A stretch of 53,542 nucleotides of DNA, from NCBI GenBank assembly GCA_007694125.1, contig RECH01000175.1, forward strand, positions 1 to 53,542, read 5' to 3'. Source of the DNA: Leptolyngbya sp. DLM2.Bin15. GTDB lineage: Bacteria > Cyanobacteriota > Cyanobacteriia > RECH01. The notes beneath the pieces are model-generated. The model searched no databases and had not been told where the DNA came from. It worked only from the letters and a program-made list of their open reading frames with translations. Each line of letters starts with the position of its first letter. Within the stretch, counting starts at the first letter, position 1. The position numbers and the translations under genes were made by a program. Positions 1,158 through 53,542 of the stretch are shown here, one piece after another.

Positions 1158-2132
1158 TTAAGACCCTTGATTGCGTTGATCCAAAAACTGCAGTTGCTGA
1201 TAAAGCATATGTATCAACGGTACTGGCACCTGTTTAGCTTGAGCCGCTGTTATCGGCTGTTTGAAAATGGCCTCCAACTCCAGCGGACGCTGTTCGTCAT
1301 AGTCAATTTTCATGCTGGTGCGGTAGGGTTTCATCTGCTCCGTATGGTCAATATTTTGCTGAATATAATGGTCATCCAGAACTCGACCATAGGCAGCAGC
1401 CACGGCAATCACTTCCTGCATCAACGCGATCGCTAATTGACGTGCATGGGGGTCACCAATCATCTCGCTGGTGCTGGCATTGAGAACAACAGAAAGACCA
1501 TTGAAGGGAATATTCCAAATCAGTTTCTTCCAGCGAGCCCAGAGCAAATCTTCCGTTTGATCAATAGGAATTCCCGCCTGTTCAAAATCTTGAGCGATCG
1601 CTTTCAATCGCTCCGTGATCCCCCTAGCGGCATAGTTTGGCCCATAGTCACCTAGGGCAATCTTTTTGTAATCCAAATGGCGAATGTGCCCCGGCCCAAC
1701 CTTGTTGGAGCAGATGAAACAAAGCCCGCCCATCACCCGATCGGCCCCGACAATCTCTGCCACGTAGGGCTCTACGCCCAGTCCATTTTGCAGAACCAGA
1801 ACCACACCATCGGGCTTGAGGACGCTGGGAAGCCACTGGGGAAGTAGGTGATTCTGAGTGGTTTTCAGCGCCACAACCACCACATCGCAGGGAGGCATAG
1901 TGGCTACCCTGGCATGGGCCTGTACCTCAGGGAGAATCACATCACCATCGACAGACTCCACAACTAAACCATGCTGCCGAACATGGTCGTAGTCGCGGTG
2001 CAGCAGGTAGTGAACCTCCAGACCAGATTGCTGCAACCGTGCTCCATAAAATCCGCCTAGGGCACCCGTCCCCAGAATGGCATATCGACGCTTAGACTGT
2101 GGCATACCTGCGATCGCTGAACAACAACCCAT
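1158..2132 (-). CDS. panE: 2-dehydropantoate 2-reductase family protein
   Basis: Ketopantoate reductases reduce 2-dehydropantoate to pantoate with NADPH in the cytosolic pathway to pantothenate and CoA. The 324-residue product has the N-terminal Rossmann motif GTGALGGFYG (residues 21-30). In the C-terminal half it has the family pattern ARWKKLIWNIPFNG, with the probable catalytic Lys, and TSMKIDYDEQRPLE. The start at 2132 has AGGA 9 nt upstream. An in-frame ATG at 2105 (MPQSKRRYAIL) would remove nine residues encoded partly by a HIP1 octamer and is a real alternative. Cyanobacteria carry several paralogues of this family, so pantoate synthesis is likely but not certain. The gene stands alone, 24 bp downstream of the 3' end of the repeat block. 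Confidence 0.8.
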   Translation of the reverse strand: MGCCSAIAGMPQSKRRYAILGTGALGGFYGARLQQSGLEVHYLLHRDYDHVRQHGLVVESVDGDVILPEVQAHARVATMPPCDVVVVALKTTQNHLLPQWLPSVLKPDGVVLVLQNGLGVEPYVAEIVGADRVMGGLCFICSNKVGPGHIRHLDYKKIALGDYGPNYAARGITERLKAIAQDFEQAGIPIDQTEDLLWARWKKLIWNIPFNGLSVVLNASTSEMIGDPHARQLAIALMQEVIAVAAAYGRVLDDHYIQQNIDHTEQMKPYRTSMKIDYDEQRPLELEAIFKQPITAAQAKQVPVPLIHMLYQQLQFLDQRNQGS

Positions 2133-2176
2133 CTTCTATATCCTAGGTGTTGCTATCGCTAGGAGTAGAAGGTGCG

Positions 2177-2881
2177 CTAGTTTTTAGGGTAATCGAGTTC
2201 TTGGCGCACACTCAAGGCGATCTGCAGGGCATCGTTCAAAAACTGTTGATAGTCGCTGGCTTCTGCTGGTAATTGGACGGACTGTAGGGCGATCAGATTA
2301 TTCTCAATGTTTTCAAGCAGTTCTTGTCGTCGCGCCAAAAAGCGCTGGTTTTTGCGAAGAATTCGATCGGTCATCATCGCACAGACCAGGTTTTCACGAG
2401 TAATGGTCAGTGCTTGTAGAAGTTGGGATTGTTGCTCAAGAGACTGGCGAGACGCATGATGAGACTCTAGCTCTTGAAAGATTTGAATCGATTGAATGAT
2501 GTCGTTGTAGCGATCAACATCGAGCAAAATGCGATCGAGGGATCGATAGATGCGCGATCGCCACCAAAATAATCCATTCATTCCTAGAAATACAGCCAAC
2601 GCTGTACCAAAACCCACGGTGAAGAAGGCGATCGCATCCTGATTGTTCACCAATAGCCAGCGCGTATTGCGCAACACAATCAACACAATGGGTATGCAAA
2701 AAATAGAGGTAATAATCAGCAAGATTACCTCAGTGATCACGAGGTCGAAAAAAGCTCGAAACGACCTTAGACTCGACAACCGAAATGAAAAGTTAATCCA
2801 AGCTTGCGAGAAATGAAGTTGCGTGAGAGTTTCAAGTTCATCCTGGGTGAGCTGTAACTCTTTTAAATTCAGCGTGTCCAT
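2177..2881 (-). CDS. Two-TM membrane protein with coiled-coil tail
   Basis: I do not recognise a named family. The 234-residue product has a polar N-terminus, two hydrophobic segments (about 46-70 and 83-106), and then a long polar region rich in Gln, Leu and Arg. Heptad-like spacing in that region (about 120-225) suggests a coiled coil. It is probably an inner- or thylakoid-membrane protein with both ends on the same side. The ATG at 2881 is the only early start. It lies 44 bp upstream of panE on the same strand, so the two may be co-transcribed; no shared function is implied. Confidence 0.7.
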   Translation of the reverse strand: MDTLNLKELQLTQDELETLTQLHFSQAWINFSFRLSSLRSFRAFFDLVITEVILLIITSIFCIPIVLIVLRNTRWLLVNNQDAIAFFTVGFGTALAVFLGMNGLFWWRSRIYRSLDRILLDVDRYNDIIQSIQIFQELESHHASRQSLEQQSQLLQALTITRENLVCAMMTDRILRKNQRFLARRQELLENIENNLIALQSVQLPAEASDYQQFLNDALQIALSVRQELDYPKN

Positions 2882-43960: not shown

Positions 43961-45481
43961 TTAGACCAAAGCTGGCTCTTCTTGCTCCGCCGGCTCTTCG
44001 CCTAAGATCGCCGTGGCTCGGGCTTCCCGGAATAGGTGATTGGCCCACTGCTGCACGTCGTAGCGCTTAATAGCCTGATACATGCGTCCCATGCGCGCCT
44101 TCTGCTCCTCCGGCGACATCGCCAACGCTTCGTTAATCGACTCGTCCATGCGGCTAGAAGCATAGGGATTGGTGAGGACGGCATCAGGCAGTTCCACCGC
44201 CGAACCGGTAAACTCCGACAGCACCAAGACGCCATCCTGACCCTCATGGGCCACCACATATTCCTTGGCCACTAGGTTCAAACCATCCCGCAGGGGCGTA
44301 ATCCAGGCAATATCTGCCGCTTTGAAATAGGCGATCAGTTCTTCAAAGGGAATGGGTGTGGTAAACAGAATAATCGGCGTCCAGTTGAGCTTGGCGAACC
44401 GACCGTTAATCTTACCCACCAACTGCTCAATCTGTCCTTGGGCAGTTTTGTACACCCGCATTCCTTGATTGGGCTGCACCGCCGTGGTGATCAGATTAAT
44501 CTTGCCGTGCAGATCCGATCGCCGCTCTAGCAATCGTTCGTAGGCCCAGAGCATTTCTCGGGTACCTTTCACGTAATCTACCCGCCCTGCGGACATAATC
44601 AGCTTATTATCACCCACCTCACGGCGAATGTTGGCAATCCGCTCAGCCGTCTCTGGCTTTTGCAAAATGGACTGAATCAGTTGGGGGTTGGTGCCCACCG
44701 GGAAGGCATCTAAGTTCACCAAGCGATCGCCATAGCGAACTTGAGTGGTCACCTCAGGTTCAGCCAAAGCTGTGCCAAAGGGCGTAAAGGCTTGATCCAC
44801 CGGCACTCTGCGGGTAATTTCAACCGGCCGCAAACTGCGCGCCGCACTGACAAAGTTTTCGACATAGCGGGGAATGTGGAAGCCGCACAGGTCGCAGCAC
44901 AGTAGGCTATCGACGATCGCTTCTCGCCAAGGCAGAATGTTGAAAATATCCGCAGCAGGGAAGGGAGTGTGGTGGAAGAAGGCAATCTTAGCGTTGGGCA
45001 TCTTTTGCCGAATATAGTACGGCGTGAGCCACAGGTTATAGTCGTGGATCCAAATTAGGGCATCCTCTGCCGCATCTTCACAGGCAGCATCGGCAAACAT
45101 TTGATTAATATGCTGGAAGTTATCCCAATCCGATGAATCGTAGGTGAACTGCCAGGGGAAGGAGTGGAGAATCGGCCAAAATGCTTCCTTCGAGGTGATG
45201 TGGTAAAAGTTTTTCACCTGATCAGGCGTCAGGGGAATGCGGCGCACCACACAGCTGTCGCTGGCTCCGTCTGGGCTAATTTCAGCTTGAAACGGTTCTT
45301 TTTTGCGAGGGTTGACCTGCTTCCATGCAACCCAGGTGCTACGCTCTGCGTTGGCAAAAAAACTTTTTAGGGTCGGAACAATACCGTTAGGGCTCTTTTT
45401 CTCACGGTAATGGAGTGTTCCATTCTCATAAACCTCATCATAGGGTTCACGATGATACAGAATCACAAGGGAGGATTTCAT
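43961..45481 (-). CDS. ggpS: Glucosylglycerol-phosphate synthase
   Basis: GgpS joins glucose from ADP-glucose to glycerol-3-phosphate, giving glucosylglycerol-phosphate, the first step to the compatible solute glucosylglycerol. The 506-residue product is a GT20 retaining transferase like trehalose-phosphate synthase. It shows IWIHDYNLWLTPYYIRQK, FFHHTPFPAADIFNILPW, AGRVDYVKGTREML and RDGLNLVAKEYVV. The N-terminus MKSSLVILYHREPYDEV matches cyanobacterial GgpS rather than trehalose enzymes. It has no phosphatase domain, so GG-phosphate phosphatase must be elsewhere. AGGAGA lies 8 nt before the ATG at 45481. It is divergent from gghA. Confidence 0.95.
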   Translation of the reverse strand: MKSSLVILYHREPYDEVYENGTLHYREKKSPNGIVPTLKSFFANAERSTWVAWKQVNPRKKEPFQAEISPDGASDSCVVRRIPLTPDQVKNFYHITSKEAFWPILHSFPWQFTYDSSDWDNFQHINQMFADAACEDAAEDALIWIHDYNLWLTPYYIRQKMPNAKIAFFHHTPFPAADIFNILPWREAIVDSLLCCDLCGFHIPRYVENFVSAARSLRPVEITRRVPVDQAFTPFGTALAEPEVTTQVRYGDRLVNLDAFPVGTNPQLIQSILQKPETAERIANIRREVGDNKLIMSAGRVDYVKGTREMLWAYERLLERRSDLHGKINLITTAVQPNQGMRVYKTAQGQIEQLVGKINGRFAKLNWTPIILFTTPIPFEELIAYFKAADIAWITPLRDGLNLVAKEYVVAHEGQDGVLVLSEFTGSAVELPDAVLTNPYASSRMDESINEALAMSPEEQKARMGRMYQAIKRYDVQQWANHLFREARATAILGEEPAEQEEPALV

Positions 45482-45937: not shown

Positions 45938-48484
45938 ATGGTCACCACTGCCACTCAGATTGCTTTAGTTGAAGACGAAACCCAAGCCCTCCTCGACTGG
46001 GCGATCGCCGTTAACGACTCGAATGAAACCTACTTTCATAAAAGTCAACAGTTGGCACGGCGACTGGGAGCCCATTACCGCTCAGACGGTCTTACCGAGA
46101 TTGGCTTCTGGACACCGCGACTCGCCAGCGAGGTCATTCAGTCGGAACGGGACATTTTCCTAGAAGTATTCACGCCCCTAGATCCCATCGACTTTCGATC
46201 ACCGGAGCAGACCGTGCGCTTCCAGTGCGATCGCATCCCGCTCATGCAGCAGGGGGAATACATTTGGGGCGTCCTGGCAGGAATGCAGCCCGGACGGCGC
46301 GATCGGGCCGGATCGTTCTACTGGCTGCGGGCCCTCAGTCCTCACCACTACCTGAGGATTATTCGCGATCCCCTGGCTGTCTCCATGCCCTACGGTGTAT
46401 TTGCGCCAGCCGAACTCTACGACATGGATTCCATCCAGCAGCAGCGCGCCGATCTCGACTACCTGCGCCGCACCTCTCAGTGTGACGAAGAGGGCACCAT
46501 TCCCCGCGTTCCGGCACCCCACAATATCCTGCAACTGCACATCACCACCGCCTCCCCCACCGGCTCCTTAGAAGGGTTGACGGAGTTGTATCGTCAAATT
46601 TCTGACAAGCTAGAGCAGGGGCTACCGCTCACCGGCGCAGAAGAAAACTACATTGGCTACGACGCTGTCCAGCTTTTGCCCGTCGAACCCACCATCGAAT
46701 ACCGCATTGAAGGCGATAACTTCACCCACGAATTTTTTGCGATCGCCTCCAATACCGACTCCGATGAACCCGATTTGACCATTGAGCTCACCTCTGATCA
46801 GGTGATCACCGATCAACATCCCATTTTCAAAGATCAGGAACAGCGCCAGGTCACCCTGCGCAAACCCAACACCCATAACTGGGGCTACGACGTTCCCATT
46901 CTCGGCTCAGCAGCCACCAATCCCGCCCTGCTTGGCAGTCTGCGCCCCGACGAGATGATTGACTTCATCGCCACCCTACACAACTTTTCCACCGGCCCCA
47001 TCCAGGTGATCTACGACTTGGTCTACGGCCATGCCGACAACCAAGGCGAGGAATTGCTCAACCGCCAGTTTCTCAAAGGGCCCAACATGTATGGGCAAGA
47101 CTTGAACCACCAGCTCCCCACCGTCCGGGCCGTCTTGCTGGAAATGCAGCGCCGCAAGATTAACACCGGAGCCGACGGCATTCGCGTGGATGGCGGGCAA
47201 GATTTCCGTTGGTTCAATCCCCTTACCGGCTTAGTAGAACAGGATGACGCTTATCTCCTGGCTATGAGCGATGTGGTGCAAGAGATCAACGGCTGCCAGC
47301 GCCTAATGTTCACCATTTTCGAAGATGGTCGCCCTTGGCCCCAAGAAGGCTGGGAAGAAACCTCCACCTACCGCGACTTAATCGAACTACAGCCCGCCTC
47401 CTACCAATGGGGGCCCCTGATTTTTGCCCACAATACCCCAGCCCTAGAAGGCTTTTGGGATAAAAAATGGCAGCGGGTCAGTGAGGTGCTGATCCAAGGC
47501 GACCATTGGATTACCGGCTGCGCCAACCACGACACCGTGCGCCGCGGCAACCAAATTCTCCTGGATGCCAAAATCAACTGGAATCTCGGCAAAACCCTGC
47601 CCCAAGTGCTGCGCAACGCCTACGATAATCCAGCGGTGAAGCTCTGGGTCTATGGCTTCAGTCCAGGACTGCCCATGGACTTCATCAACACCATGATGTG
47701 GGCTCCCTGGCTATTTTTCCGCAACACCGACGATCGCTACGGCGTCAAGGTGGCCGCCGAGGAAGTAGGCTTTTTGGATTGGCAGATTGAACCCGAACTC
47801 TATGACCAACCCTGGGCCTTTCTGCGGCTCAAGGAACTAGGGTTTAAGGATCTCAAAGCCCTGAAAACCTTTTGCACGGCCCTCAGCGAAGCCTTGCTGA
47901 AAACAGATTATGACCTTGAGGCGGTGGCGCGCATGTGTCAACGCTGCCTAGGCGACAACCCTGACTACTGCGAAGTATCGGCAATGTACGACCTGCAGCA
48001 TCCCGATCGCGCCCCCTTCCTCAACCATGTAGATGTTCCTGCCCTCAAATCCTTCGCCATGGGCTTTATGGAAGATGCCCACGATATCTGTAATGTCAAA
48101 TACTACATGGATGACGTGGATCCGGTTTTAACCCATTTTGGGCTACAGGTGCGGCAATATCGGCATCAGCATCCCTGGCTAGCGGAAAATCTTGGCGGCA
48201 GCGATCGCTTCAACCGAATTAGCGATAAACGCCGCACGGTATTCTACGGTCTACGCACCTGTGCAGACTGCGATGACGAGCTAGAGCAGGTGGCGCTGGT
48301 CACCCATATGGGCGGCAAACCCATTGACGTCACCCTAGGCGACTGGCTGCAGCTTGATCTCAGCGAATGGCGCATTGCCCTAGCCACGCCGGGGCTAGAA
48401 CTCGACGACAGCGACCCCGACGAACTACGCCTCTTTGAGCTAAAGGATAGCCAAGGGGTGCTGCTGGAGCGCATTCGAGACTAG
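45938..48484 (+). CDS. gghA: Glucosylglycerol hydrolase
   Basis: GghA hydrolyses glucosylglycerol to glucose and glycerol, so cells can drop the solute after salt downshift. The 848-residue product is collinear in length with Synechocystis GghA. It has a GH13-like barrel with GADGIRVDGGQDFRW (probable nucleophile Asp region), MFTIFEDGRPWPQEGW and TGCANHDTVRRGNQ. The N-terminal segment (DSNETYFHKSQQLARRLGAHY) and the C-terminal beta domain are family-like. ATG at 45938 is the first in frame. Divergent from ggpS, which makes the substrate; the last 45 bp overlap a small gene on the other strand. Confidence 0.9.
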   Translation: MVTTATQIALVEDETQALLDWAIAVNDSNETYFHKSQQLARRLGAHYRSDGLTEIGFWTPRLASEVIQSERDIFLEVFTPLDPIDFRSPEQTVRFQCDRIPLMQQGEYIWGVLAGMQPGRRDRAGSFYWLRALSPHHYLRIIRDPLAVSMPYGVFAPAELYDMDSIQQQRADLDYLRRTSQCDEEGTIPRVPAPHNILQLHITTASPTGSLEGLTELYRQISDKLEQGLPLTGAEENYIGYDAVQLLPVEPTIEYRIEGDNFTHEFFAIASNTDSDEPDLTIELTSDQVITDQHPIFKDQEQRQVTLRKPNTHNWGYDVPILGSAATNPALLGSLRPDEMIDFIATLHNFSTGPIQVIYDLVYGHADNQGEELLNRQFLKGPNMYGQDLNHQLPTVRAVLLEMQRRKINTGADGIRVDGGQDFRWFNPLTGLVEQDDAYLLAMSDVVQEINGCQRLMFTIFEDGRPWPQEGWEETSTYRDLIELQPASYQWGPLIFAHNTPALEGFWDKKWQRVSEVLIQGDHWITGCANHDTVRRGNQILLDAKINWNLGKTLPQVLRNAYDNPAVKLWVYGFSPGLPMDFINTMMWAPWLFFRNTDDRYGVKVAAEEVGFLDWQIEPELYDQPWAFLRLKELGFKDLKALKTFCTALSEALLKTDYDLEAVARMCQRCLGDNPDYCEVSAMYDLQHPDRAPFLNHVDVPALKSFAMGFMEDAHDICNVKYYMDDVDPVLTHFGLQVRQYRHQHPWLAENLGGSDRFNRISDKRRTVFYGLRTCADCDDELEQVALVTHMGGKPIDVTLGDWLQLDLSEWRIALATPGLELDDSDPDELRLFELKDSQGVLLERIRD

Positions 48485-48777: not shown

Positions 48778-50109
48778 CTAAGCAAGGGGGCGATCGCCAT
48801 ACAGCGACTGAAAAATGAAGTCGAGATCCAGGCTCCAAGACTGGGGATCCTCCTCTGAGCGAATCAGGTGGATTTGGTCAATAAACTCTCGAAAATAGAC
48901 CCGCCGTTCCGACTCCGATAGATCGTGCCAAAACTGGGGAATCGACAAGGTTTGGGCGATCGCCTTCAGATTGGCAGGCGGCAGTTGGGCCTGGCGATCG
49001 CGCAGGGCCGACAGTTCGGTTTTGAGCGTATAGCTGCGCAGACTAGCGGTTTGGTCATCAAGAATGCCCTGCTCCACCAAGGTGGGTAGGCGCTGCAGAA
49101 TATCTTGCTTCACGGCAATCTGTCCACCGATCGCCTGCTGCAGTCCGTCGATATCCGGCAACTCTAGGGCAGCGATCGCCGCCGGTAAATCCTGACAAAT
49201 CCGGTGAATGGCCTGATCCAACACCTCACCATAGGCAATGGCGCTGCACTTAGACGATAGCCGCGGGCAAGCCATGGGGCGTAGATAGAGATAGTCCGTC
49301 GCGCTCTGTCGCCGGGTGACGCGGGTCACGGTCATCCCCGACTGGCAGGTCTGACAGGTCACCAAGCCCGCCAAAGAACGGGGGGCGCTGGCGGTTTTGG
49401 GCGGCAAACGGCGATTGCGACGCATGAGGCGATCAATTTGGGCCGCTTCATCGCGGGAAATCAGCGCTGCATGGGTATCGGAAATCACATCACCGGTGTG
49501 GTATTGCAAATCGCCGCGATAGATCGGACTGGTGAGCCAGCGCCGCCCGGTGGATACCGAAAATTTCTTGCCAAACTGTTGATTAATCTGACGGACACTG
49601 CCCCGCAGGGTACCGTAGAGCAAAAAGTGTTCCACCAAAGCTTTGACAATGGGAGCCGTGCTGCGATCGATCACATAGCGATCCTTGCCGCGCCGATAGC
49701 CGTAGGGCGCTTTACCGGGCGGCGGCAGGGCATTCACCCGATTTTTGGCATGGCCCCGCTGAATTGTTCGCCCGCGCTGCTGTTGCTGGAGCTGGCGAAA
49801 TAGTACGATCATCTGCGATCGCTCCAGCCCACCCGCAGGAGGCTGATCGTTGTCTAGGGGCGTGAGGGGAATCCCCAACTGTTCTAGCAGGGCGAGGCGA
49901 TCGCTCACCTCAGCTAAGGAATCCCCCAACTCTCCCAGATGGCGCACCAAAATTGACGTAATCAAACCGGCGCGGCAATCGGTGAATAATTGATCAAGCT
50001 GCAGGCGATCGCCCCAATCTTGGTAGAGACGATCAATGGAGCAGGGCCAATCGGGCGGCTCTGCCGAGTCAAGATAGGGATCGCCATACCAATAGGCTGC
50101 AGTGGTCAT
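48778..50109 (-). CDS. Serine-recombinase-related protein lacking the catalytic serine
   Basis: The 443-residue product resembles large serine recombinases of the XisF/resolvase kind. Its N-terminal part (about 1-110) keeps the fold sequence IDRLYQDWGDRLQLDQLFTDC and ILVRHLGELGDSLAEVSDRL. The usual first strand with the nucleophile (YxRVSTxxQ) is replaced by AAYWYGDPYLDSAEPPDW, with no serine in the expected place. The recombinase domain follows (about 128-236, APYGYRRGKDRY to SPIYRGDLQY). Then come a zinc ribbon (CQTC...CPRLSSKC) and a coiled-coil region (about 310-390). It may bind DNA without strand exchange. Flanking att-like repeats were not found. Confidence 0.8.
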   Translation of the reverse strand: MTTAAYWYGDPYLDSAEPPDWPCSIDRLYQDWGDRLQLDQLFTDCRAGLITSILVRHLGELGDSLAEVSDRLALLEQLGIPLTPLDNDQPPAGGLERSQMIVLFRQLQQQQRGRTIQRGHAKNRVNALPPPGKAPYGYRRGKDRYVIDRSTAPIVKALVEHFLLYGTLRGSVRQINQQFGKKFSVSTGRRWLTSPIYRGDLQYHTGDVISDTHAALISRDEAAQIDRLMRRNRRLPPKTASAPRSLAGLVTCQTCQSGMTVTRVTRRQSATDYLYLRPMACPRLSSKCSAIAYGEVLDQAIHRICQDLPAAIAALELPDIDGLQQAIGGQIAVKQDILQRLPTLVEQGILDDQTASLRSYTLKTELSALRDRQAQLPPANLKAIAQTLSIPQFWHDLSESERRVYFREFIDQIHLIRSEEDPQSWSLDLDFIFQSLYGDRPLA

Positions 50110-50148: not shown

Positions 50149-50649
50149 TCAGTCGGTAATTTTGCGATATCCAGCATAGCCAATGCCAAGTACAATAGCC
50201 AGCAAAACCAGGAAGGTGGAAAATGGCACAAAGGAGAAAAAGATAATTCGTACCCTTGCGCCTAGCCAGGATAAGAACAAAAAGGCGGCTGCCATCATGA
50301 TCAACCCCTGGAAGGTACGAAAAGCCGGGATGAGGTGCAGGGGCAAGCGTCGCCGCGATAGCCACAGGGATACTAGCATGTGGTAGAGCGGTAAGACTAG
50401 GAGCAGCAGATCCGCTGTCGTCACCACCAGCCGCCAGCCACCTATATTGACAGCGTAGGATAAATAGCCAATCAACAATAAAAAGCCAGCGATCGCCAGC
50501 CCTAGATTGATACTGAGGAGCAGGGGTTCTTCTAACTTACCTGGAATAGCCACGCAGAGCAAATAGGTGATCCAGGGGGCCGCAAACACCAGCACGGCGA
50601 TGGGAATGCGCAAGTCTGTAAGCTGGACGTAAAACGCTTCAATGGTCAT
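50149..50649 (-). CDS. Conserved membrane protein, 166 aa
   Basis: From the ATG at 50649 the product starts MTIEAFYVQLTDLRIPIAVL and has four to five hydrophobic helices, ending in GYAGYRKITD. The frame extends upstream to 50694, but the added residues (MRRYRYCESVEILPI) look out of place. The tail motif FSFVPFSTFLVLLAIVLGIGYAGYRK could be a last membrane span. It lies 39 bp upstream of the recombinase-like gene on the same strand. No family is recognised with confidence; similar proteins are common in cyanobacteria. Confidence 0.65.
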   Translation of the reverse strand: MTIEAFYVQLTDLRIPIAVLVFAAPWITYLLCVAIPGKLEEPLLLSINLGLAIAGFLLLIGYLSYAVNIGGWRLVVTTADLLLLVLPLYHMLVSLWLSRRRLPLHLIPAFRTFQGLIMMAAAFLFLSWLGARVRIIFFSFVPFSTFLVLLAIVLGIGYAGYRKITD

Positions 50650-50741
50650 GATAGGCAGGATCTCAACGGACTCACAATATCGATATCTCCTCAAGACTAC
50701 AACCGCGAAACTAGGGAATTCAGATCAGTTGATGAAATCGC

Positions 50742-52637
50742 CTACTGATAGCGCCAGATTTTGATGGTGCGATCGCCACTACCGCTGATCAAGGTACGAT
50801 TATCGCGGCTAAAGGCTAGGGCATTGACACCCTTATGATGCCCATGACAATAGCTCGCCAAGGTATGGCGCAGCCGCCCGGTTTTGAGATCCCAAAGCTT
50901 AATGGTGCAGTCATCGCCGCCGCTGGCTAGGGTGCGGCCATCAGGACTAATGCACACCACCCGCACCCAGTCTAGATGCCCGGTGAGCGTTCGCCACAGC
51001 CGCCCCTTGCGCAGATCCCAAAGCTTAATGGTATTGTCGCTGCTGCCGCTAGCCAACATCTTGCTATCGGGGCTAATCGCCAGGGAATTAATATCCCGTT
51101 GGTGATCCGTGAGTTTGTGCATCAGTTCACCCGTACTGAAATTCCACAGCCAGATGATATTGTCATTACTGCCACTCACCAGAATCTTGCCATCGGGGCT
51201 AATGTCCACCGCCGACACCGCTCGGGGATGGCGAATACTGCGCAGGAGCCGCCCGGTTTGCAAATGCCAGATTTTCACCGTATGGTCATCACTGCCGCTC
51301 ACCAAGGCTTGACCATCGGGACTGATTTCCACCGACAGCGCCATCACCGAGGCCGCTGTATCCGTGAGGGTAGACGACTGCTGCCCCGTAGCCACGTCCC
51401 AGAGGCGAATGGAGTCGTCTACACTACCGCTAATCAAGGAGCGGCCATCTAGGCTAAATACCACCGACAGCACCGGCGAGAGATGCCCTTCAAAGGTGCT
51501 CACCAAGGCACCGGTACCCAAATGCCAAAGCTTAATGGTGCGGTCAAAACTACCGCTGGCGAAGAGCTTGCCATTGGGACTGGTGGCGATCGCGGCCACG
51601 GAGTTGGCATGACCCTCCAAGGTATAGACACAACGCCAAGCCAGGGGCGTTGTCGGCTGGATGTCGGGCAGTTGGGTGGTGGAATAGCGAGAGGGCGGCG
51701 GTGGCGGCGGCGGCAGTTTGGGGCCGAGGACAGCGTCTTCCCCCATATCCGGCAGCGTATTCACATAGCGCAGGGCAGCGATCGCTTCCTGGGCAGACTG
51801 ATAGCGCTGACTGATAGCAGGCTGCAGCATACGATCCAGCAACAGGCCTAGCTCACTATGGATAGGACTGCGCAGATAGTCGCGCCAGATCCAAGTTCCC
51901 TCGGTGAAGGAATAGAGATCAAAGGGAGGTACATCGGTCAGCAAATGAATACAGGTGACCCCTAGACTATAGAGATCGCTAGCGAACACCGCCTTGCCGC
52001 CCGTTTGCTCCGGCGCGGCATAGCCCGCACTGCCAATCACCGTCCCGGTTTGCTGTAGAGCGGCGGCGCTGGTGAGCTTGGCCGCCCCAAAATCCACCAA
52101 CACCAACTGACGATCCGATCGCCGTCGGATGATATTGGCGGGCTTGATATCGCGGTGGATCACCTGGGCCTGATGGATGAAAGCCAGCACAGGCAATAAA
52201 TCACCCAACACATGCCGAATTTGCGCCTCGGTGAACGGCCCCGACTGGGCGACCTCTTGCTCTAGGGTTTGGCCATCCACAAAGGACTGCACCAGGTAGT
52301 GATAGCGATCTTCTGAAAAGTGGGCCAGGAGATGGGGAATTTGGGGATGGGGCGATAGGTGATCCAGGCGGTTGGCTTCTTCGTGGAACAGGTGGGTGGC
52401 CTTGTCTAAGCGATCGCCCGATAGGTTGCCCGGAAAAAATTGCTTGATCACACAGGGCGGTCGGGATGGAATATGTTCATCCACCGCTAGGTAGGTTTTG
52501 CCAAATCCCCCATGCCCCAAGGGACGAATCGCCCGATAGCGATTGTTCACCTGCAGGCGCATACCGCAGCTTTGGCAGAACTGCGCTTCCGCCAAATTTT
52601 GCGGCGATAGACATAGGGGGTTGAGGCAATAGCTCAT
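50742..52637 (-). CDS. Ser/Thr protein kinase with zinc ribbon and WD40 propeller
   Basis: The 631-residue product joins three parts. Residues 1-30 are a small zinc ribbon (Cys4, Cys9, Cys21, Cys24). Residues 34-300 are a Hanks-type kinase with GHGGFGKTY (41-49), Lys65, HRDIKPAN (Asp163) and DFG (182-184), so catalytic residues are intact. A Pro-rich linker (seven Pro in PPPPPPP) leads to seven WD40 repeats (about 340-631), each ending in IKLWDL-like units, that should form a propeller for target binding. It is cytosolic, with no membrane span. Kinase-WD40 proteins are typical of filamentous and other complex cyanobacteria. Targets are unknown. It is divergent from tocopherol cyclase. Confidence 0.93.
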   Translation of the reverse strand: MSYCLNPLCLSPQNLAEAQFCQSCGMRLQVNNRYRAIRPLGHGGFGKTYLAVDEHIPSRPPCVIKQFFPGNLSGDRLDKATHLFHEEANRLDHLSPHPQIPHLLAHFSEDRYHYLVQSFVDGQTLEQEVAQSGPFTEAQIRHVLGDLLPVLAFIHQAQVIHRDIKPANIIRRRSDRQLVLVDFGAAKLTSAAALQQTGTVIGSAGYAAPEQTGGKAVFASDLYSLGVTCIHLLTDVPPFDLYSFTEGTWIWRDYLRSPIHSELGLLLDRMLQPAISQRYQSAQEAIAALRYVNTLPDMGEDAVLGPKLPPPPPPPSRYSTTQLPDIQPTTPLAWRCVYTLEGHANSVAAIATSPNGKLFASGSFDRTIKLWHLGTGALVSTFEGHLSPVLSVVFSLDGRSLISGSVDDSIRLWDVATGQQSSTLTDTAASVMALSVEISPDGQALVSGSDDHTVKIWHLQTGRLLRSIRHPRAVSAVDISPDGKILVSGSNDNIIWLWNFSTGELMHKLTDHQRDINSLAISPDSKMLASGSSDNTIKLWDLRKGRLWRTLTGHLDWVRVVCISPDGRTLASGGDDCTIKLWDLKTGRLRHTLASYCHGHHKGVNALAFSRDNRTLISGSGDRTIKIWRYQ

Positions 52638-52743: not shown

Positions 52744-53542
<799 letters not shown>

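Follow-up and report, generated by a model that had tools for sequence, protein, structure and literature searches.

Catalytically dead large serine recombinases form a widespread family in cyanobacteria, a probable case of domestication as a DNA-binding protein

The window analysed here is a stretch of 53,542 nucleotides from Leptolyngbya sp. DLM2.Bin15 (contig RECH01000175.1). On its reverse strand, at positions 48,778-50,109, it carries an open reading frame which starts with ATG, has no internal stop and encodes a protein of 443 residues. Based on the reading frame, profile searches, a structural model and Foldseek matches, we describe its product as a catalytically dead, XisF-like homolog of the large serine recombinases (LSRs). 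The gene is preceded on the same strand by two genes, in an order that is also found in the congener locus L158. The closer one (50,149-50,694), 39 bases upstream, encodes a protein of 181 residues which looks hydrophobic by eye and matched nothing in Pfam or NCBIfam; the other (50,742-52,637) encodes a Ser/Thr kinase with a 4-Cys prefix domain and WD40 repeats. On the other side, a glucosylglycerol-phosphate synthase gene (43,961-45,481, reverse strand; TIGR02398, 821 bits) is divergent to the gene of an 848-residue glycoside hydrolase of family GHL5 (45,938-48,484, forward strand; 1384 bits), and these two genes probably form a compatible-solute locus adjoining the dead LSR gene. A tocopherol cyclase gene (52,765-53,541, forward strand) is truncated by the end of the window. 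In the immediate neighbourhood of the dead LSR gene, which L158 shares, we did not see any interrupted gene.

The protein can be divided into successive parts by means of the alignments and the model. The former catalytic domain, which is acidic across the family (residues 1-95; 49,825-50,109; delimited from the model and the charge), begins with strand beta1 and a loop that replaces both the catalytic serine and helix alpha-A (residues 1-26, with the motif AYWYGDP; 50,032-50,109); it also contains LGELGD (residues 58-63; 49,921-49,938), aligned with L66-D67-R68-L69-G70-R71 of gamma-delta resolvase. Helix alpha-E, the dimerisation helix of known serine recombinases, comes next in the model (residues 97-125; 49,735-49,821), followed by the linker PPPGKAPYGYRRGKDRY and the recombinase DNA-binding domain (residues 126-235; 49,405-49,734), which according to the alignment and the selection estimates are the most constrained part. 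A zinc ribbon (residues 236-315; 49,165-49,404; alignment and model) carries C252, C255, C281 and C288 and the hairpin tyrosines Tyr273 and Tyr275. It is followed by a coiled coil seen in the model (residues 316-375; 48,985-49,164) and by C-terminal helices and a hairpin which complete the zinc-ribbon domain (residues 376-443 and the stop codon; 48,778-48,984; model and alignment). In Pfam, the Recombinase domain PF07508 scored 37.5 bits, above its cut-off; the zinc ribbon PF13408 and the Resolvase domain PF00239 remained slightly under theirs, and the match to PF00239 begins no earlier than residue 34. The original prediction, made from the DNA letters, had described a gene undamaged by stops, with recombinase domain, zinc ribbon and coiled coil intact; the open frame, the match to PF07508, the model and the kept cysteines agree with this description.

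Modelling and comparison with a serine integrase had been proposed as a check of that prediction. We obtained an AlphaFold model from an alignment of 74 orthologs (one per group of about 80% identity, that is 77 representatives minus L043, L053 and L128, which are of unusual length), with a mean pLDDT of 92.8 and a pTM of 0.85. The zinc-ribbon strands are present in this model and the coiled-coil helices occupy residues 320-346 and 352-374. A Foldseek search of the PDB at E <= 0.001 returned 24 matches, 23 serine integrases (LSRs) and one Tn3 resolvase, and the best E value for the large serine integrases was 8e-18. With the VIA aligner, residues 114-434 matched the A118 integrase-DNA structure (Z 16.2, rmsd 5.3 over 277 residues) and the N-terminal part matched resolvase catalytic domains (Z about 11-12). 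Since the matches of the two programs cover both parts of the protein, the gene product is predicted to have the full-length LSR architecture, the start of the catalytic domain excepted: a Resolvase domain, helix alpha-E, a recombinase domain and a zinc ribbon with an inserted coiled coil are found, and helix alpha-A is missing. In the model, strand beta1 (residues 3-9) is followed by coil (10-26) and then by beta2 (27-32). A control model of the intact XisF-like protein L139 from the same class, although weaker (pLDDT 81.4, pTM 0.39), has helices at 12-16 and 20-30 where the model of the window protein has coil. In addition, the spacing between Tyr6 and the Asp36 position has a median of 26 residues in orthologs (23-41) and of 33 in intact relatives (32-44), with overlapping ranges.

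An active serine recombinase has a serine at the end of beta1 together with Arg8, Arg68 and Arg71, and this set is not found in the window gene. We counted the corresponding residues in 129 orthologs and 17 intact relatives, after exclusion of fragments or broken genes (L057, L058, L131, L134, L151) and of second copies of loci already counted (L152-L158); one ortholog, L132, has no N-terminal domain, which leaves 128 sequences for positions 8-10. A separate alignment of the intact relatives comprised 16 of the 17, without L136. Arg8, Ser10, Arg68 and Arg71 are all present in 17 of 17 intact relatives. In the orthologs, the Arg8 position is occupied by Tyr in 122/129 and never by Arg. When the family profile is aligned with gamma-delta resolvase, L-E-E-L-G-D falls over L66-D67-R68-L69-G70-R71; the Arg68 position is Glu or Asp in 121/129 orthologs and Arg in a single one (L054), the Arg71 position is Asp or Glu in 108/129 and Arg in none, and D67 is retained in 11/129. 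Two other positions are kept, D36 in 128/129 and R45 in 125/129.

The column of Ser10 is gapped in most orthologs, and positions 8-10 were instead read without gaps from Tyr6. Read in this way, position 10 holds Asp in 83 of 128 orthologs, Asn in 18, Glu in 15 and a Ser in L046 alone. Position 9, one residue ahead of the Ser10 position, holds Thr in 56 of 128 and Ser in 33; six have Gly there, the window gene among them. The family pattern at the site of the lost nucleophile is AYxYxDP, of which the window gene has the form AYWYGDP; such a conserved pattern in the former catalytic domain could mean an activity that is not recognised as such. The loss of the catalytic serine, the central claim of the original prediction, is therefore borne out and is wider than proposed, as it extends to the positions of Arg8, Arg68 and Arg71 and to helix alpha-A. 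The accompanying question, whether close homologues all lack the serine, gives one exception among 128 orthologs, L046, which is also the kind of homologue that had been named as a refuting case. As L046 lacks Arg8, Arg68 and Arg71 too, its serine would restore no active site.

By profile search (E <= 1e-30), we detected the dead LSR family in 240 of 388 genomes of a class-wide draw, corresponding to 207 of 334 good-quality genomes and to 122 of 160 genera. Among the matches listed, two or three copies per positive genome occur in nine genomes and one copy in the others, and none of these matches contains a stop. In an earlier phylum-wide draw, 138 of 386 genomes gave any match, including weak ones to intact recombinases; apparent stops in that draw, which had suggested broken genes, were read as alignments overrunning the end of the frame, and none is present in the listed profile-search matches. 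No family match was obtained in 148 of the 388 class genomes. The twenty of these that are listed belong to families f18, f20, f24, f27, f45, f49, f50, f51, f54 and f57; f18, f24 and f27 hold both genomes with and genomes without the gene, and f20, judging by its small genomes, probably represents the picocyanobacteria. In a few genomes the copy is broken or shortened: L131 is split over two main frames, L134 over three pieces, and L057 and L058 are fragmentary. Given these copies and the lack of a match in 148 genomes, some hosts can evidently do without the gene. The ortholog L132 (genome G014), and apparently L057 alike, lacks the entire former catalytic domain with the DNA-binding half open, which suggests that this domain can be dispensed with; L132 is a single case and may represent early decay. 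In genome G064, a second N-terminal fragment (L151, positions 2025-2252, reverse strand; residues 1-76), about 16 kb from the intact copy L083 and 98.7% identical to it, corresponds to a partial duplication.

We built a tree from 89 orthologs and 10 intact relatives, by a quick method without bootstrap; several of its branches are long. All orthologs group together in a single clade apart from the 10 intact recombinases, with an SH-aLRT of 100, and 38 changes suffice for the 35 host-family labels. Among plasmid and phage records, the best identity was 31%, and scanning viral contigs for two peptide patterns gave no confirmed relative. In these searches and in this tree, the family shows neither the plasmid or phage location nor the patchy horizontal spread of a mobile element; it is passed down with the host, and what is inherited is a gene whose catalysis has been lost. 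As there is one clade, as the loss is shared within it and as many host families are represented, the catalytic loss was presumably single and early. L055 (G395, family f50), an intact serine recombinase, is the best match from a lineage in which we did not detect the dead family; it is possibly near the ancestral form but sits on a long branch.

We then consider charge, conservation and selection along the protein. The mean net charge of the former catalytic domain is -9.1 in orthologs and -0.2 in intact relatives. Compared with the latter, basic charge is higher in helix alpha-E with the linker (8.8 versus 3.1) and in the recombinase domain (7.3 versus 3.9), but not in the zinc ribbon (5.8 versus 6.4). 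The mean top-residue fraction is highest in the linker and in the recombinase domain (0.78 for both), is 0.55-0.63 over residues 1-95 and is 0.59 in the coiled coil, which belongs to the less conserved parts. C252, C255, C281, Y273 and Y275 are kept in 129/129 orthologs and C288 in 127/129, and the invariant columns of the 74-sequence alignment include PPG..P.GY, T187, W191 and L192 together with C252, C255, C281, Y273 and Y275.

The study of A118 integrase describes DNA contacts made by the minor-groove linkers, helix alpha-H and a zinc hairpin; Tyr295 and Tyr297 touch thymine methyls, and zinc is bound by four cysteines (PMC3783163). Y273 and Y275 probably correspond to these two tyrosines, with the reservation that the printed alignment is offset by two residues. 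An equivalent of Tyr275 exists in only 6 of 17 intact relatives, so that this is no general LSR position.

Purifying selection had also been proposed as a check. With the Nei-Gojobori method we analysed 91 ortholog pairs of 85-99.9% identity, which are not independent of each other, and kept 81 with a Ks of 0.1-1.5; for these the median dN/dS is 0.133 and the maximum 0.230, and among the pairs dropped for their Ks one had 0.245. When the window gene was compared with those of two congeners, overall dN/dS was 0.100 and 0.116, with 0.195 and 0.318 over residues 1-115, 0.012 and 0.013 over residues 116-235, and 0.094 and 0.089 past residue 235. The family is under purifying selection, strongest over the DNA-binding recombinase domain, and its conservation peaks in the DNA-binding half.

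Large serine recombinases are familiar in two roles, as integrases of phages and as enzymes of developmental excision. Among named families the closest is XisF, the excision recombinase of the fdxN element (NF041201), to which the window protein aligns over residues 34-414 with 134.6 bits and an identical domain order; all 74 aligned family members match this model. However, the score is far from the equivalog cut-off of 375 bits and does not place the protein in XisF. It also differs from XisF by the lack of a match over its first 33 residues, by the absence of catalytic residues and by a descent that follows host families. XisF is reported to act on an element inside fdxN (PMC4874684). The A118, or Listeria, integrase (4KIS) is the best VIA match and is alike in its zinc cysteines and hairpin tyrosines, but it is an active phage enzyme; the window protein is only 14% identical to it and lacks an active site in its former catalytic domain. 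That domain resembles the catalytic domain of gamma-delta/Tn3 resolvase in profile (E 1.4e-4) and in fold, as given above; D36 and R45 are kept, whereas S10, R8, R68 and R71 are lost and alpha-A is absent in the model. TnpA of the IS607 family, a transposase that moves DNA, retains catalytic residues, and its serine-recombinase catalytic fold is alike (6dgc, Z 12.2, 86 residues within residues 1-115). It is reported to form a dimer in a chemically inactive arrangement and, unlike the dead LSR, to have an N-terminal DNA-binding domain (PMC6188088).

Within the host genome, the window gene is the sole match of its kind, and no second Resolvase-domain gene was detected at E <= 0.01. The only other recombinase-domain match is a small open reading frame without catalytic domain on contig C74 (L161, positions 1426-1818, reverse strand; about 130 residues; Recombinase domain 38 bits, profile positions 1-50), flanked by CBS-like and ferredoxin-like frames as judged by eye. 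A control genome, that of Synechococcus elongatus, has both Recombinase and Resolvase domain matches and contains a candidate ortholog.

We also searched for a DNA site. In 76 upstream regions taken without coding bases, only the octamer GCGATCGC, which we take to be HIP1, stood clearly over background among dyads; the best other dyad scored 12.3 and the best dyad of the shuffled null 10.8. A putative autoregulatory site, ATGAAAAT..TTGCCTA, was rejected, as it consists of the gene's own first codons, 20 coding bases having been included in the regions. HIP1 was rejected as a general target: it is enriched upstream but is found throughout the genome, and high or low counts are not tied to the presence of the gene, as G080 has the gene and 74 sites (control 174) and G193 lacks the gene and has 8811 sites. 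In the host genome (G000), GCGATCGC is present in 11648 copies versus 84 for the reversed control.

We consider it likely that, early in the history of cyanobacteria, an LSR was domesticated as a DNA-binding protein which recognises a specific sequence without cutting it and has a regulatory or architectural function. An ancestor of many present-day cyanobacteria would have recruited an XisF-like LSR as a chromosomal gene. The cleavage machinery, namely the nucleophile, the Arg8, Arg68 and Arg71 positions and helix alpha-A, would then have been lost once, and helix alpha-E, the minor-groove linker, the recombinase domain, the zinc ribbon and the coiled coil would have been retained. The protein most likely binds as a dimer to a particular DNA site, about 40-50 bp long by analogy with A118 integrase, leaves it uncut and acts as a regulator of transcription or of local DNA architecture, the acidic former catalytic domain possibly serving dimerisation or contact with another protein. 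Weighing against this reading are the upstream search, in which no site but HIP1 stood out, the charge of the zinc ribbon, the limited occurrence of Tyr275 in intact relatives, the lack of a conserved neighbour that points to a pathway, the genomes with a broken copy or no match, and the conserved pattern in the former catalytic domain. The original prediction had favoured a role other than recombination, for example that of a DNA-binding regulator. Its first part, a protein that is no recombinase but still binds DNA, is well supported, because the catalytic loss is family-wide, purifying selection acts and conservation is concentrated in the DNA-binding half; the regulator is a role that we infer. 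Only tentatively would we go further and regard the dead LSRs as a dedicated cyanobacterial DNA-binding system, with a long, near-fixed site and coiled coils joining distant sites, in other words a non-cutting regulatory or looping machine.

Other explanations were weighed against domestication as a DNA-binding protein. A chromosome-organising or bridging protein, whose site-bound dimers would be joined through their coiled coils as in integrase synapsis and would create loops instead of controlling a single promoter, seems rather unlikely to us. The coiled coil is retained in the model, the family is widespread in the class and usually in single copy, alpha-E with the linker and the recombinase domain carry more basic charge than their counterparts in intact relatives, and a promoter motif beside the gene was not found, all of which would fit; but a repeated site was not found either, HIP1 does not track the gene in G080 and G193, and the sequence of the coiled coil is one of the less conserved stretches (0.59). 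It is improbable that the protein is a regulatory partner of an active XisF-type recombinase, acting through inactive mixed dimers or by blocking sites. Although all 74 sequences of the alignment hit the XisF model and both kinds of protein coexist in some genomes, such as G245 and G174, this role is unlikely in the host studied here because no other Resolvase-domain gene was detected there at E <= 0.01, the remaining recombinase-domain match being the small frame without catalytic domain.

A guard protein, which would sit on attachment-like sites and hinder phage integration or element excision, appears quite improbable: host-family descent and a slowly evolving DNA-binding domain are unlike arms-race genes, and defence genes were not seen by eye among the repeated neighbours, even if the retention of the DNA-binding half and the loss of the cutting half are as expected for such a protein. 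Very improbable, too, is a recombinase still active with a shifted nucleophile, either the Ser or Thr of position 9 or Asp10. These residues are indeed frequent (Thr in 56/128 and Ser in 33/128; Asp in 83/128), but position 9 of the window gene is Gly, none of the 129 orthologs retains Arg8 or Arg71 and a single one retains Arg68, the domain is acidic and helix alpha-A is missing. Finally, a decaying relic of a mobile element is hardly credible; broken or shortened copies exist in a few genomes, but the matches listed contain no stop, dN/dS is about 0.1 and the tree follows host families, and this reading is contradicted by the selection estimates.

The finding is larger than first noted: it concerns a widespread cyanobacterial family. 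Among open papers in PubMed Central, a scope in which subscription journals are mostly outside, we found no description of a dead LSR family. If domestication as a non-cutting DNA-binding protein is correct, the family represents a clear case of it in the LSR class. It would also correct the annotation of these genes, which automatic pipelines can be expected to label as recombinases and perhaps to include among mobile-element genes. If the S. elongatus gene is an ortholog, a deletion and a map of binding sites would be practical in this species.

Concerning the gene neighbourhood in the family, the repeated neighbours in 84 stretches include no conserved gene pointing to a pathway. In 53 of 127 loci (15 of 35 families, 33 of 77 genera), a gene of the VOC (glyoxalase) fold, identified by Pfam, is found upstream on the same strand, no more than 700 bases away; the gap does not exceed 100 bases in 39 of these 53 loci, and nine times the genes overlap by 4 bases. 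In the window genome, the VOC relative is on another contig and not adjacent to the dead LSR gene. The VOC gene is present in 6 of 8 examined genomes with a dead LSR and in 5 of 18 without one, absence of the dead LSR being taken from the class-wide draw, or from the phylum draw for G147 and G183. An obligate partnership was rejected on these grounds. The link looks old and loose, and we keep it as an association without a mechanism. The VOC-fold genes located downstream in family f13 look by eye like a different protein, of the glyoxalase-I type.
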